Positions 5,273 to 18,486 of a DNA stretch of 46,975 nt are shown here, piece after piece. The notes beneath the pieces are model-generated. The model searched no databases. It was not told where the DNA came from and saw only the letters and a list, made by a program, of their open reading frames with translations. Location: assembly GCA_031259845.1 (NCBI GenBank), contig JAIRKZ010000075.1, positions 1-46,975 on the forward strand, given 5' to 3'. Position numbers and translations under genes: made by a program. Origin of the DNA: Tannerellaceae bacterium. Its GTDB lineage: Bacteria > Bacteroidota > Bacteroidia > Bacteroidales > Tannerellaceae. Each line of letters opens with the position of its first letter. Within the stretch, counting starts at the first letter, position 1.

Positions 5273-5301
5273 TTGTCTTTTTCAGGTGAATGATACTTTT
5301 G
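5273..5301 (+). promoter_or_regulatory. Promoter of the iclR-cytochrome-dhaKL-lsrF operon
   Basis: TTG at 5273-5275 and TACTTTTG at 5294-5301 are separated by 18 bp, matching the Bacteroidetes -33/-7 consensus (usual spacer 19). The predicted start of transcription is near 5308, which argues against ATG codons at 5290 and 5308 being used and for 5329. Confidence 0.6.
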
Positions 5302-5302
5302 A

Positions 5303-5356
5303 TTCAAATGCGAAACTTTGTTTCAAATATGGAAAATGTACTTTCAAATCTGGAAA
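5303..5356 (+). promoter_or_regulatory. Three near-identical TTC(A)AAT..GAAA sites, candidate IclR operators
   Basis: TTCAAATGCGAAA (5303), TTCAAATATGGAAA (5322) and TTCAAATCTGGAAA (5343) are imperfect palindromes spaced 19 and 21 bp. They cover the predicted transcription start and the start codon. IclR-family sites are often palindromes of TTTC/GAAA type, so autorepression is plausible. A fourth partial copy (5381-5393) lies in the gene. The last copies also encode the related peptides SNLEK and PNLEK, so part of the likeness may be coding. Confidence 0.4.
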
Positions 5357-6138
5357 AGATAGACGAAAATTATAAAGCGCCAAATCTGGAAAAAGGGATT
5401 GCCGTGTTGGAATACCTTTCGCTTCATTCGCTGGGTGAAACGTTGCAGGAGATTAAAACGGCGCTGGATATTTCTCAAACAACCGCTTACCGTATTCTTA
5501 ATACGCTGGTGCGCCTTGATTATCTTCAATATAATGAAGATTCCAAACGATACAAGCTTTCGCGGAAACTGCTTACGCTTGGTTTTCGTGTGTTGAACGA
5601 ACATAATCTTCTTGAAACGGTATTACCTCGTTTACGGGATTTACGCGACGTCGTTAAAGAAACGGTTTGCTTCGGCGTATTGGGCAGTAAGAAAGGAATT
5701 TTTATTGAGCAGGCGCAAGGGCATCATACGTTTCGTTTTGTGCTTTCGCCCGGCAAACCGTTTGAACTGCACTGTTCCGCGCCGGGTAAGGCTATTATGG
5801 CTTACCTTCCCAATACCGTTCGCAACCGTTATTTATCGTATATGGAATTTCCACGTTTCAACGTCCGTACCATTACCTCTAAAGAGACGTATCTGAAAGA
5901 ATTGGAAAAGGTACGCCTTTATGGATATGCACTTGATAATGAAGAAGAGTTGAGCGGGGTGATTTGTGTGGGCGCTCCTGTGTTCAACTATACCGGATAT
6001 CCTTGCGGAGCTATATGGATATCAGGCCCGAAAGACAGGTTAACGAAAGAAGTAATTAAAACATCGGCCAAACAAATAATGGAAATAACCACTATGGTTT
6101 CGGTAGAATTAGGATATAGTAAAACTCAAAAGATATAA
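5329..6138 (+). CDS. IclR-family transcriptional regulator
   Basis: An N-terminal winged-helix domain (about residues 18-80, with the recognition region around LDISQTTAYRILNTL) is followed by an IclR effector-binding domain (about 90-269, with features such as HCSAPGKAIMAYLP and APVFNYTG). This gives 269 residues from ATG 5329; longer starts at 5290 and 5308 are possible but lie at or before the predicted transcription start. IclR proteins commonly control catabolic operons for small acids or aromatics and bind a metabolite of the pathway. It is the first gene of the operon, with only 10 bp before the cytochrome gene, so it probably controls itself and all nine genes downstream. The effector is unknown. 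Confidence 0.9.
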   Translation: MENVLSNLEKIDENYKAPNLEKGIAVLEYLSLHSLGETLQEIKTALDISQTTAYRILNTLVRLDYLQYNEDSKRYKLSRKLLTLGFRVLNEHNLLETVLPRLRDLRDVVKETVCFGVLGSKKGIFIEQAQGHHTFRFVLSPGKPFELHCSAPGKAIMAYLPNTVRNRYLSYMEFPRFNVRTITSKETYLKELEKVRLYGYALDNEEELSGVICVGAPVFNYTGYPCGAIWISGPKDRLTKEVIKTSAKQIMEITTMVSVELGYSKTQKI

Positions 6139-6148
6139 GCAATATACT

Positions 6149-15974: not shown

Positions 15975-16982
15975 ATGAAGACAAAATTTATAAACGAACC
16001 TGAAAATGTAACTTCAGAACTGTTGGAAGGATATGTGCTTTGCTATCCGGACAAAGTAAAATTGGGCGGCGAAAATATTATTCTCCGGGCTAATCCAAAG
16101 GATGAGGGTAAAGTAGCCATTGTAACATTGGGCGGCTCCGGGCACGAACCTGCATTGAGCGGGTTTGTAGGAGAGGGAATGCTGGATTGTTCTGTTGTAG
16201 GCGATGTGTTTGCGGCTCCGGGAGCCCAGAGGCTTTTCCAGGCATTGCAATTGATGAAACGTGAAGCAGGCATCCTGTTGGTTGTATTAAATCATTCGGG
16301 AGATGTGATGAGCGCTAACATGGCTTGTCAATTGGCTGAACGCGCCGGAATCAGGGTACGGCAACTTGTTACCCACGATGATATCAGCGCCGGCATAGGT
16401 GCGCCGGCAGACGACCGCCGCGGCTTGGCTGGCTGTATACCTTTATATAAAGTAATAGGCGCTGCAGCGGAAGAAGGCAAATCGCTCGACGAATTGATTG
16501 AGATAGGCGAACGCTTCAACAAGCAGATCGCAACATTGGCTGTGGCAACGGGAAAGTGTACCCACCCACAGAATAACGCCCTGATCTCTGACCTGCCTCC
16601 CGGTATTATGGAAATAGGGATGGGACAGCATGGCGAAGGCGGCGGCGGGCAAAAACCATTGGTGTCGGCGGATGAAACGGCCGTTGAAATGGTAGATTTA
16701 CTATGCCGGCAACTTCAGCCCAAAAGCGGGGATAAGATGATGCTGATCATTAACGGAACAGGCGCTACTACTCAAATGGAGCATAACATTATTTTCCGTA
16801 AAGCGTATAAAGAACTTGAAGCCCGTGGAATGAAGGTGGCGGCCGGACGGATACAGGAAATCCTGACTGTGCAGGAACAGGCCGGTTTCCAAATGATTAT
16901 GGCTATCCTTGACGATGACCATATTGATTACCTCAATAATAGAAAAGCAGATGCGCCTTATTGGACAACGATAGGGAAGTAA
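15975..16982 (+). CDS. dhaK: Dihydroxyacetone kinase subunit DhaK
   Basis: The 335-residue protein matches DhaK in length and motifs: TLGGSGHEPALSGFVG near residues 50-65, GDVFAAPGA, NHSGDVMSANMA, and the substrate-binding His in GMGQHGEGG (His219; His218 in E. coli), which forms a hemiaminal with the ketone substrate. DhaK holds the ketone substrate (dihydroxyacetone, or in relatives erythrulose and similar hydroxyketones) while DhaL-bound nucleotide transfers the phosphate. It sits 14 bp after the VOC gene and 3 bp before dhaL. The substrate is probably a short hydroxyketone; dihydroxyacetone itself is only one option given the LsrF homologue downstream. Confidence 0.93.
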   Translation: MKTKFINEPENVTSELLEGYVLCYPDKVKLGGENIILRANPKDEGKVAIVTLGGSGHEPALSGFVGEGMLDCSVVGDVFAAPGAQRLFQALQLMKREAGILLVVLNHSGDVMSANMACQLAERAGIRVRQLVTHDDISAGIGAPADDRRGLAGCIPLYKVIGAAAEEGKSLDELIEIGERFNKQIATLAVATGKCTHPQNNALISDLPPGIMEIGMGQHGEGGGGQKPLVSADETAVEMVDLLCRQLQPKSGDKMMLIINGTGATTQMEHNIIFRKAYKELEARGMKVAAGRIQEILTVQEQAGFQMIMAILDDDHIDYLNNRKADAPYWTTIGK

Positions 16983-16985
16983 AGT

Positions 16986-17606
16986 ATGGAATTGCTGACG
17001 ATTGATCTGTTTAAGGCGATGCTCCGGCAAGCGCTTGAGGAAATAAAGAAACGGGAAGATGAGTTTTCCCGCTTAGATGCCGTTATTGGAGACGGCGACC
17101 ATGGAACAGCTATTGTTACCGCCCTCTCAGCTGCCGTGAAAGCGGCTGAAAAGCAGACCGAGTTTAAAGCCCTGTTGAACGATATGGGATTCGGCGTAAT
17201 GCTTGAAACGAGCGGTTCTACAAGTACGCTGCTGGGAGCCTTTTTCCTGGGTATGTCCGACAGCGCTTCGGGAATAGCTTTGGATGCAGCGGGAGTAAAG
17301 GCAATGTTTGCCGGAGGTTTGGCCAATGTAGCGAAGCAAACGCAGGCCCGCATTGGCGATAAGACCATGATGGACGCCCTTATCCCCGCTGTGGAAGCCA
17401 TGCAGGCATCTGCATCCGCTGACGTAAGGGAACTTTTTGAAGCAGCGGCAACGGCAGCCATGCAAGGCGCCGCGCAAACGATAAATATGAAAGCAAACTA
17501 TGGACGAGCCCGTAATTACGGCGAACGCTCGATAGGTTATGCCGATAGCGGCGCATCTTCATGGTGCTGTATGATTAACGCTTTTGCAGAATGTATAATT
17601 AATTAA
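16986..17606 (+). CDS. dhaL: Dihydroxyacetone kinase nucleotide subunit DhaL
   Basis: The 206-residue protein carries the magnesium-nucleotide Asp triad in LDAVIGDGDHG (Asp31, Asp36, Asp38), GDKTMMDALIPAVEA, and a C-terminal GERSIGYADSGASS, all as in DhaL. In the PTS-type system DhaL holds ADP that is rephosphorylated by DhaM; no dhaM, EI or HPr gene lies in the window, so the phosphoryl donor is open (free ATP exchange or a distant DhaM). It is close-packed between dhaK and the lsrF homologue. Confidence 0.92.
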   Translation: MELLTIDLFKAMLRQALEEIKKREDEFSRLDAVIGDGDHGTAIVTALSAAVKAAEKQTEFKALLNDMGFGVMLETSGSTSTLLGAFFLGMSDSASGIALDAAGVKAMFAGGLANVAKQTQARIGDKTMMDALIPAVEAMQASASADVRELFEAAATAAMQGAAQTINMKANYGRARNYGERSIGYADSGASSWCCMINAFAECIIN

Positions 17607-17613
17607 ATAAAGT

Positions 17614-18486
17614 ATGGCTGATTTAGATGAATTAAGAGAAGGCTGCGAGTTTGGACTGGGAGTAGCTGCAGGCAACCGGGGTTATCACGTGAAAGGGGCA
17701 AACAATCTGCCCTGGGGGATGAAAGACCGCCTTTCGCGTATTTTCAACCCGGAGACAGGCCGCACGGTAATGCTGGCTTTCGACCACGGTTTTATTATGG
17801 GCCCTACCTCCGGAGTGGAGCGGATAGACCTGAATATCCTGCCGCTGGTTCAATATGCCGATTGCCTGATGTGCACCCGTGGTATATTGCAAACAGTAAT
17901 ACCGCCGGATACGAATAAACCGGTATGCCTCCGTTCGGATGCAGGGACAACAATCCTCACGGAACTGAACGATAACGTCTTGATCGATATAGAAGACGCT
18001 ATTCGTTTAAACGTATCGGCTATGGCAATTATGCTTGCTATAGGCGATACGGCTTTCGAGGCCAAAACCGTTGTCAACCTCTACAAAGCGGTTGATTCGG
18101 GAAGCCGGTACGGCATACCTGTTATGGGAGTAACGGCGGTAGGTAAACAAATGGCGCGCGACGCCCGTTACTTCGGGTTAGCTTCGCGCGTCTGTGCCGA
18201 AAACGGCGCTAATATTGTAAAAACATATTATTGCGAAGGCTTTGAGAAAGTAACCGCCGCCTGCCCCGTTCCGATTGTCATTGCCGGAGGAAAGAAACTT
18301 CCCGAAAAAGAAGCGTTGGAGCTTTGCTATAAAGCCATCAACGACGGCGCTTCGGGTGTGGATATGGGACGGAATGTATTTCAAAGCGCCTCGCCGGCAG
18401 CGATGATACAGGCAGTACATGGAGTTGTTCACGATGGGCTAACGCCAGCGGAAGGTTTTGAACTGTTCAAAGAATTAACGATATAG
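17614..18486 (+). CDS. lsrF: LsrF-type aldolase-fold thiolase
   Basis: The 290-residue sequence aligns along its length with E. coli LsrF (3-hydroxy-5-phosphonooxypentane-2,4-dione thiolase): MADLDEL, WGMKDRLSRIFNP.TGRTVMLAFDHG, LMCTRGIL, VTAVGKQM, IVKTYY and PIVIAGGKKLPEKEALE. The Lys residues in IVKTYY and AGGKK match the LsrF active-site lysines. E. coli LsrF transfers an acetyl group from the phosphorylated AI-2 product to CoA, yielding dihydroxyacetone phosphate and acetyl-CoA. No other lsr gene (lsrK, lsrG, lsrACDB, lsrR) is present. DhaK/DhaL may provide the phosphorylated substrate here. It is the last gene of the operon; 129 bp separate it from proS. Confidence 0.85.
   Translation: MADLDELREGCEFGLGVAAGNRGYHVKGANNLPWGMKDRLSRIFNPETGRTVMLAFDHGFIMGPTSGVERIDLNILPLVQYADCLMCTRGILQTVIPPDTNKPVCLRSDAGTTILTELNDNVLIDIEDAIRLNVSAMAIMLAIGDTAFEAKTVVNLYKAVDSGSRYGIPVMGVTAVGKQMARDARYFGLASRVCAENGANIVKTYYCEGFEKVTAACPVPIVIAGGKKLPEKEALELCYKAINDGASGVDMGRNVFQSASPAAMIQAVHGVVHDGLTPAEGFELFKELTI

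Follow-up and report, generated by a model that had tools for sequence, protein, structure and literature searches.

A conserved gut Bacteroidales operon with hydrazine synthase-like haem proteins, DhaK-DhaL and an LsrF-family enzyme, possibly serving the use of a small sugar or hydroxyketone

The window analyzed here, a stretch of 46,975 nucleotides from a Tannerellaceae bacterium (assembly GCA_031259845.1, contig JAIRKZ010000075.1, positions 1 to 46,975), carries a block of ten genes that encodes two exported haem proteins together with a DhaK-DhaL kinase pair and an LsrF-family enzyme. Sequence comparisons give good support for the homology of the two haem proteins to all three subunits of the hydrazine synthase (HZS) of anammox bacteria, and for the conservation of the block across gut Bacteroidales (Parabacteroides, Bacteroides, Tannerellaceae, Rikenella and others). 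We propose, at a little less than even confidence, that the block is an operon for the use of a small sugar or hydroxyketone, in which an HZS-type haem redox reaction would feed a DhaKL-LsrF route. The broader proposition, that HZS-type complexes form a wider enzyme class carrying out haem redox chemistry on a carbohydrate or hydroxyketone outside the inner membrane and feeding a DhaKL-LsrF route with no described counterpart known to us, is rather doubtful.

In profile searches, the protein with fused beta and gamma parts (HzsBC-like) matched the HZS chains 5c2v_B (1.8e-30) and 5c2v_C (1.9e-23), and it matched the NCBIfam model hydrazine_BC at 9.8e-24, a score far under that model's own cut-off. 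Its gamma part resembles CCP/MauG enzymes, and the nearest match to the 591-residue protein in the collection searched is from a Tannerellaceae metagenome-assembled genome (93% identity). The HzsA-like protein consists of a propeller, a middle domain and a C-terminal haem domain followed by an FGE-sulfatase domain (Pfam). Both proteins have signal peptides (these, like the lipobox of the cupin described below, were judged by eye). The four c-haem sites lie at positions homologous to those of HZS, since the CXXCH motifs at 402 and 511 align to gamma and those at 626 and 676 to alpha, and all four are invariant (20 of 20 aligned alpha and 15 of 15 aligned beta-gamma sequences). The sequence-only reading of the window had recognized the propeller and the CXXCH pairs, which stand, and had overlooked the HZS homology and the FGE-sulfatase domain. 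The fusion of the latter domain (residues 874-1130 of the product of 9812-13213) to an HZS alpha homologue is an observation in its own right, as are second HzsA-FGE paralogues (38-63% identity) in loci L043-L051, whose fetched sequence contains no beta-gamma gene; some of them adjoin SusC/SusD-like genes (named by eye).

The roles of key HZS residues were taken from PMC12758564 and PMC12607021, and HZS residue numbers were counted by hand from printed alignments. Alpha-Tyr591, located four residues past the His of a CXXCH motif, is a haem ligand in HZS (PMC12607021); its counterpart at position 634 is never Tyr in the 20 alpha sequences, being N, S, H, L or T. Gamma-Cys165 (the third thioether) and gamma-Asp168 have no counterpart and stand opposite a gap, or Val and a gap, in the two alignments. 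Because of these differences, the haem pair is probably not a true hydrazine synthase. Two other positions give mixed results: an invariant H742 sits one alignment column from alpha-His772 (the distal ligand of haem alpha-II), and gamma-His144 aligns to I444 in one alignment and to an invariant H437 in the profile alignment. A lone cysteine of the alpha propeller, C296, is invariant in all 20 aligned alphas, down to 25% identity; we considered it as the equivalent of the HZS zinc ligand Cys303 and rejected this, as it aligns to a different part of the propeller (by hand count).

Conservation of the block was analyzed in two sets of loci. Among 18 fetched loci of the same family, 10 carried all ten genes in unchanged order, with a single open reading frame (ORF) for each, and two carried all ten with broken frames (L030 and L039); one locus lacked rid (L033), one showed only cupin and hzsA (L036), and four were cut by contig ends. 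Scanning genome contigs with an alignment of beta-gamma proteins returned 516 relatives, and the best 80 loci, which were kept, span Parabacteroides, Bacteroides, Tannerellaceae, Dysgonomonadaceae, Petrimonas, Paraprevotella, Rikenella, Millionella and others, with named gut bacteria among the carriers, several of them from strain records; P. distasonis and B. salyersiae both carry the genes. Genes were counted in those 60 of the 80 loci whose sequence extends 9.9 kb or more downstream from the beta-gamma gene. There, hzsA was found in 60/60, always on the same strand and within about 10 kb of the beta-gamma gene; the counts for the other genes were cupin (57/60), dhaK (48/60), voc and rid (46/60 each), iclR (43/60) and ccsBA (38/60); dhaL (at least 25/60) and lsrF (at least 18/60) are undercounted because they lie near or beyond the edge of the stretch. 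In B. cellulosilyticus, B. clarus, B. nordii, Millionella and others the genes follow a second order (order B: cyt-rid-cupin-voc-dhaK-dhaL-lsrF-propeller-hzsA), and the stretch lacks ccsBA and in most cases iclR as well; loci of the B. cellulosilyticus type and those of Rikenella and Millionella are rearranged and keep the gene content. A search of 18 genomes for an eleventh gene, encoding a Mala_s_1-like propeller, detected it in 8 (in one at only 26% identity); neither the three genomes that lack HZS genes nor the genome from which the window comes yielded it. Thus the ten-gene, same-strand block described in the sequence-only reading is real, and its proposed co-occurrence in related genomes was borne out by gene neighbourhoods across gut Bacteroidales.

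Genetically, the haem half of the block is coupled to its kinase/LsrF half, as had been proposed. Two overlapping samples (at least four LsrF genomes are shared) were searched: 60 relatives including the window's own genome (LsrF threshold E <= 1e-20), and 393 genomes of the order (E <= 1e-40; here the HZS gene searched was beta-gamma). In the first, LsrF was present in 21 genomes, of which 21 had alpha and 20 beta-gamma, the single miss being a fragmented genome (G030). In the second, 10 of 11 LsrF genomes had beta-gamma, on the same contig in seven of the ten; the eleventh (G082), without beta-gamma, has a 43% relative of LsrF with two stops. Close LsrF relatives (at least 68% identity) were accordingly confined to genomes with HZS genes (21/21 and 10/10; Fisher p about 3e-14 and 5e-14, with no correction for relatedness). 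The reverse does not hold, because nine genomes of the second sample have beta-gamma without LsrF, and so do two genomes of the first sample with close HZS genes, G046 (61% complete) and G026 (77% complete; its beta-gamma gene is partial and no alpha orthologue is present); three further genomes (G042, G049 and G057) have distant relatives only (27-48% identity over parts) and were not counted as carriers. As HZS genes also occur without LsrF, the kinase-cleavage half looks like an optional downstream route. Among 296 genomes of the phylum, 11 passed the cut-off of the HZS_alpha model.

The names of the enzymes of this second half do not settle the substrate. DhaK matched 3ct4 (7e-59), and its H219 lines up with the His of the template's GxH motif (position counted by hand), which we take to be the substrate-binding His of DhaK. 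Compared with the DhaK-DhaL dihydroxyacetone kinase, the pair keeps the Dak1 and Dak2 domains and this His; it differs in falling under both NCBIfam equivalog cut-offs (274 of 406 bits for DhaK, 129.6 of 138.3 for DhaL) and in the absence of DhaM from the block. The best NCBIfam score of both proteins is to the one-chain kinase family PRK14479, again under the cut-off. In the LsrF-family enzyme, K203, presumably the catalytic lysine of LsrF, is invariant in ten operon sequences. The enzyme shares 56% of its residues with E. coli LsrF and 56-60% with five homologues encoded elsewhere in the phylum. The latter come from a group of 64 other genomes among the 296, 61 of them from one family, whose LsrF relatives are 54-61% identical. 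Neither dha nor HZS genes were found in the 3.5-3.9 kb around those five homologues. We know of no function for these homologues, and because two of them score higher on the LsrF model (517 and 497 bits) than the window's enzyme (456), the LsrF name is not proof of autoinducer-2 (AI-2) chemistry. Furthermore, ten positions (I61, M62, S66, C105, A110, N119, M140, T152, G172 and V255) are uniform in ten operon enzymes and unlike E. coli LsrF and the five homologues; with positions 61-66 coming just after the conserved DHG motif, a changed pocket is likely. The LsrF reaction that had been read from the name was thus overstated.

Of the remaining proteins, the RidA/chorismatase-fold protein matched the profiles 5ag3 (4.7e-26) and FkbO 4bps (3.5e-18) and missed the NCBIfam chorismatase cut-off (89 of 325 bits; 140 for the protein of locus L117). 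The cupin matches the D-lyxose/D-mannose isomerase family profile and its residue pattern H-x-H, E, H: H139, H141, E151 and H206, which we take to be the metal ligands of isomerase cupins, are invariant in 15 sequences. The small VOC protein gave no Pfam match at E 0.01 and no PDB sequence match; its AF2 model (pLDDT 95.4) matched the glyoxalase 2qh0 by Foldseek (E 2.7e-4, TMq 0.71). CcsBA had been regarded as the operon's own maturation factor, a dedicated role that we rejected: each of 12 genomes tested has one full-length CcsBA, encoded within the operon in nine and in a genome without HZS genes in three (3/3 of those tested), so that it looks like a general cytochrome c maturation gene (six of the 12 have, in addition, a short CcsB-type relative at 31-36% identity). 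In one genome without HZS genes, rid lies next to ccsBA (L138:5895-9586); because of this adjacency, the two may be an older functional pair.

Two features point to a sugar-like substrate, namely the isomerase family of the cupin and a carbohydrate-binding module (NPCBM) in most alpha orthologues. An N-terminal extension of the alpha protein in locus L027 was identified as NPCBM (Pfam), and of the 64 alpha ORFs in the 80 loci that are 1000 residues or longer, 51 have a matching N-terminus (11 of 18 in the same-family set). With the cupin predicted to be a lipoprotein, these features favour the extracytoplasmic substrate side suggested in the sequence-only reading. Gene neighbours add lineage-specific clues. 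An FGGY kinase gene lies near a divergent HZS-like pair, GH36, GH31 and GH97 genes flank order-B Bacteroides loci, GH95, GH43, GH39, GH29, GH97 and GH2 genes occur beside L128/L133, and a SusC-like gene is found near L107. Glycoside-hydrolase or Sus neighbours were detected in 4/34 order-A, 9/14 order-B and 3/12 dhaK-less loci (seven of the nine order-B loci are close Bacteroides) and in 5/20 control windows, i.e., evenly spaced stretches from three genomes of the window's own family; the counts are lower bounds and biased to the query loci because the 12 queries came from three to four loci.

In the proposed route, CcsBA would mature the HzsA-like and HzsBC-like proteins, which may form a putative four-haem HZS-type complex. 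Outside the inner membrane, this complex would oxidize or reduce a substrate derived from carbohydrate, and the cupin lipoprotein might interconvert aldose and ketose forms. The product, a candidate hydroxyketone, would then be imported into the cytoplasm, where DhaK-DhaL would phosphorylate the CH2OH group adjacent to its ketone; the VOC protein would rearrange the phosphorylated compound, and the LsrF-family enzyme would cleave it to dihydroxyacetone phosphate (DHAP) and an aldehyde or acyl-CoA. The chorismatase-fold, VOC, DhaK, DhaL and LsrF-family proteins lack a signal peptide (by eye) and look cytoplasmic. This sequence of haem redox, import, phosphorylation, isomerization and cleavage had been outlined in the sequence-only reading; the conserved block, the coupling of its halves and the sugar-side clues speak for it, the LsrF chemistry excepted. 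Homology, conservation and linkage were observed, and we infer from them the substrate and the reaction of each step. Several observations weigh against the proposal. DhaK is missing in 12 of the 60 loci with enough downstream DNA, and therefore the halves may do separate jobs. The conserved block contains no importer, an SSF-type symporter following in few loci only. The window's own HzsA lacks NPCBM, as do 13 of the 64 alphas. A general glycoside-hydrolase context was rejected against the control windows, and the co-occurrence counts of LsrF and HZS genes are phylogenetically non-independent.

Other explanations were weighed against the same evidence. A rare-sugar isomerase-kinase-aldolase route, in which the LsrF-family enzyme would be a retro-aldolase acting on a ketose 1-phosphate and not a thiolase, yielding DHAP and an aldehyde as in fucose or rhamnose catabolism, with the sugar provided or regenerated by the haem complex, appears unlikely to us, if worth serious attention. 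It would accommodate the isomerase family of the cupin, the higher-scoring LsrF homologues that lack nearby dha or HZS genes, and the clade-specific positions, three of which (61, 62 and 66) adjoin the DHG motif; yet the cupin looks like a lipoprotein, which would place it across the membrane from a route that runs entirely in the cytoplasm, the VOC protein would be superfluous although it is kept in 46/60 loci, and the LsrF model is passed with margin. We consider it improbable that the block does two jobs from one transcript, with the HZS-like pair acting in a peroxidase-like manner or in electron transfer (stress, respiration) and DhaKL-LsrF scavenging hydroxyketones independently. The confinement of the clade's LsrF to genomes with HZS genes, to which the only exception is the 43% relative with stops, and the cupin, which stays with the HZS pair in 57/60 loci, are hard to explain in that way, whereas the CCP/MauG-like gamma part, the loci without dhaK and the CcsBA of HZS-less genomes would agree with it.

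Processing of AI-2 (DPD) is far less probable. In E. coli, AI-2 is catabolized through LsrK, LsrG and LsrF; DhaKL would have to stand in for LsrK and VOC for LsrG, with the role of LsrF unchanged. The membership of the LsrF family is shared, and a kinase, a rearrangement and a C-C cleavage form a plausible common order (kinase-isomerase-thiolase) that would fit. However, LuxS was present in none of the 21 LsrF carriers (two of the 60 relatives have it, both non-carriers), although foreign AI-2 could be eaten; this context was judged on luxS alone, as lsrB, lsrK, lsrR and lsrG were not searched. The clade-wide changes in LsrF also speak against AI-2, and the HZS-type complex would have no role in its processing. 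Least credible of all, to the point of being nearly negligible, is a true hydrazine synthase forming N-N bonds in gut Bacteroidales: all three subunits and the four haem sites are homologous, and H742 and H437 (the latter in the profile alignment) fall at or within one residue of alpha-His772 and gamma-His144, but the positions of alpha-Tyr591, gamma-Cys165 and gamma-Asp168 are not conserved, and the neighbours are carbon-metabolism genes.

Compared with the anammox HzsABC (Kuenenia, PDB 5c2v), the operon has beta and gamma fused, an alpha with an FGE-sulfatase domain and mostly an NPCBM, no conserved counterparts of the three residues just named, and DhaKL-LsrF as neighbours. A beta-gamma fusion has reportedly been seen in the HZS of Scalindua as well. 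In the available parts of their papers, Hagglund et al. reported that Planctomycetota and Desulfobacterota have co-located HZS-like pairs, and Bacteroidota only beta-gamma homologues, with key HZS residues lost in the HZS-like clusters and their substrate not known (PMC12758564), and Suarez et al. suggested a wider HZS family with other substrates (PMC10732223). According to the same parts, these clusters likewise combine alpha and fused beta-gamma homologues, and in clades I-III, unlike the operon, alpha lies upstream of beta-gamma and an FG-GAP gene is nearby; they report no co-located pair in Bacteroidota or Bacteroidales and no link to DhaKL-LsrF, and assign no function to HZS homologues outside anammox bacteria (PMC12758564, PMC10732223). 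No paper describing this operon was found in the open-access library searched. With HZS-like genes in named gut bacteria, and with neighbours that narrow the substrate to a compound open to phosphorylation by DhaKL and to cleavage by an LsrF-family enzyme, the wider HZS-like family becomes directly testable for its function. The gene set hints at an undescribed way of carbon use, and could add a carbon route dependent on c-type cytochromes to common human gut species.

The ten co-directional ORFs (Table 1) occupy positions 5290-18486 of the window, with intergenic gaps of 10, 12, 29, 31, 3, 5, 14, 3 and 7 bp (3-31 bp), in a host assembly of 3.66 Mb in 204 contigs; all ten identities named from the sequence agree with profile, domain and fold matches. 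The next gene, 129 bp beyond lsrF, is a prolyl-tRNA synthetase-like ORF (named by eye).

Table 1. Genes of the ten-gene block, with positions in the window
Product	Position	Strand	Evidence and features
IclR-type regulator	5290..6138	+	Pfam IclR_C 2e-38, HTH_IclR 1.1e-10
HzsBC-like protein, fused HZS beta (propeller) and gamma (di-haem CCP/MauG-like)	6149..7924	+	591 aa; CXXCH at aa 402, 511
RidA/chorismatase-fold protein	7937..9034	+	FkbO_Hyg5-like_N 2.4e-11 (Pfam)
Cupin lipoprotein, D-lyxose/D-mannose ketol-isomerase family	9064..9780	+	profiles 7nzo 5.1e-14, 2y0o 1.2e-10
HzsA-like protein, HZS alpha homologue with C-terminal FGE-sulfatase domain	9812..13213	+	1133 aa; CXXCH at aa 626, 676
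CcsBA (ResB + CcsB) cytochrome c maturation protein	13217..15640	+	Pfam ResB 3.6e-22, Cytochrom_C_asm 7.5e-37
Small VOC-fold protein, candidate isomerase/epimerase	15646..15960	+	AF2 model and Foldseek
DhaK-type hydroxyketone kinase, substrate-binding subunit	15975..16982	+	Dak1 3.1e-93 (Pfam)
DhaL-type nucleotide-binding subunit	16986..17606	+	Dak2 8e-38 (Pfam)
LsrF-family aldolase/thiolase	17614..18486	+	NCBIfam NF006081 455.9 bits (cut-off 297); 3gkf 5.4e-126

The true start of iclR is probably near 5329, because its orthologues are mostly 265-274 residues long. The single promoter predicted earlier for the block found no support, as sigma-70-like sites were at chance level (28 observed, 29.2 expected in 4500-19500), and so was the motif TANNTTTG, which we take to be the Bacteroidota -7 promoter motif (49 observed, 44.7 expected in the window); one copy of this motif is located at 5294. 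Elsewhere in the window, a small RNA of the FopS family (RF04319) was detected at 22556-22638 (58.5 bits, cut-off 56); a gene resembling sodium:solute symporters (named by eye) lies close by, at 22736-24289. A Bacteroidales small signal recognition particle RNA at 44415-44597 directly adjoins a tRNA-Thr, and two RecQ-like helicase genes (39926-41833 and 44650-46479; named by eye) lie less than 3 kb apart.

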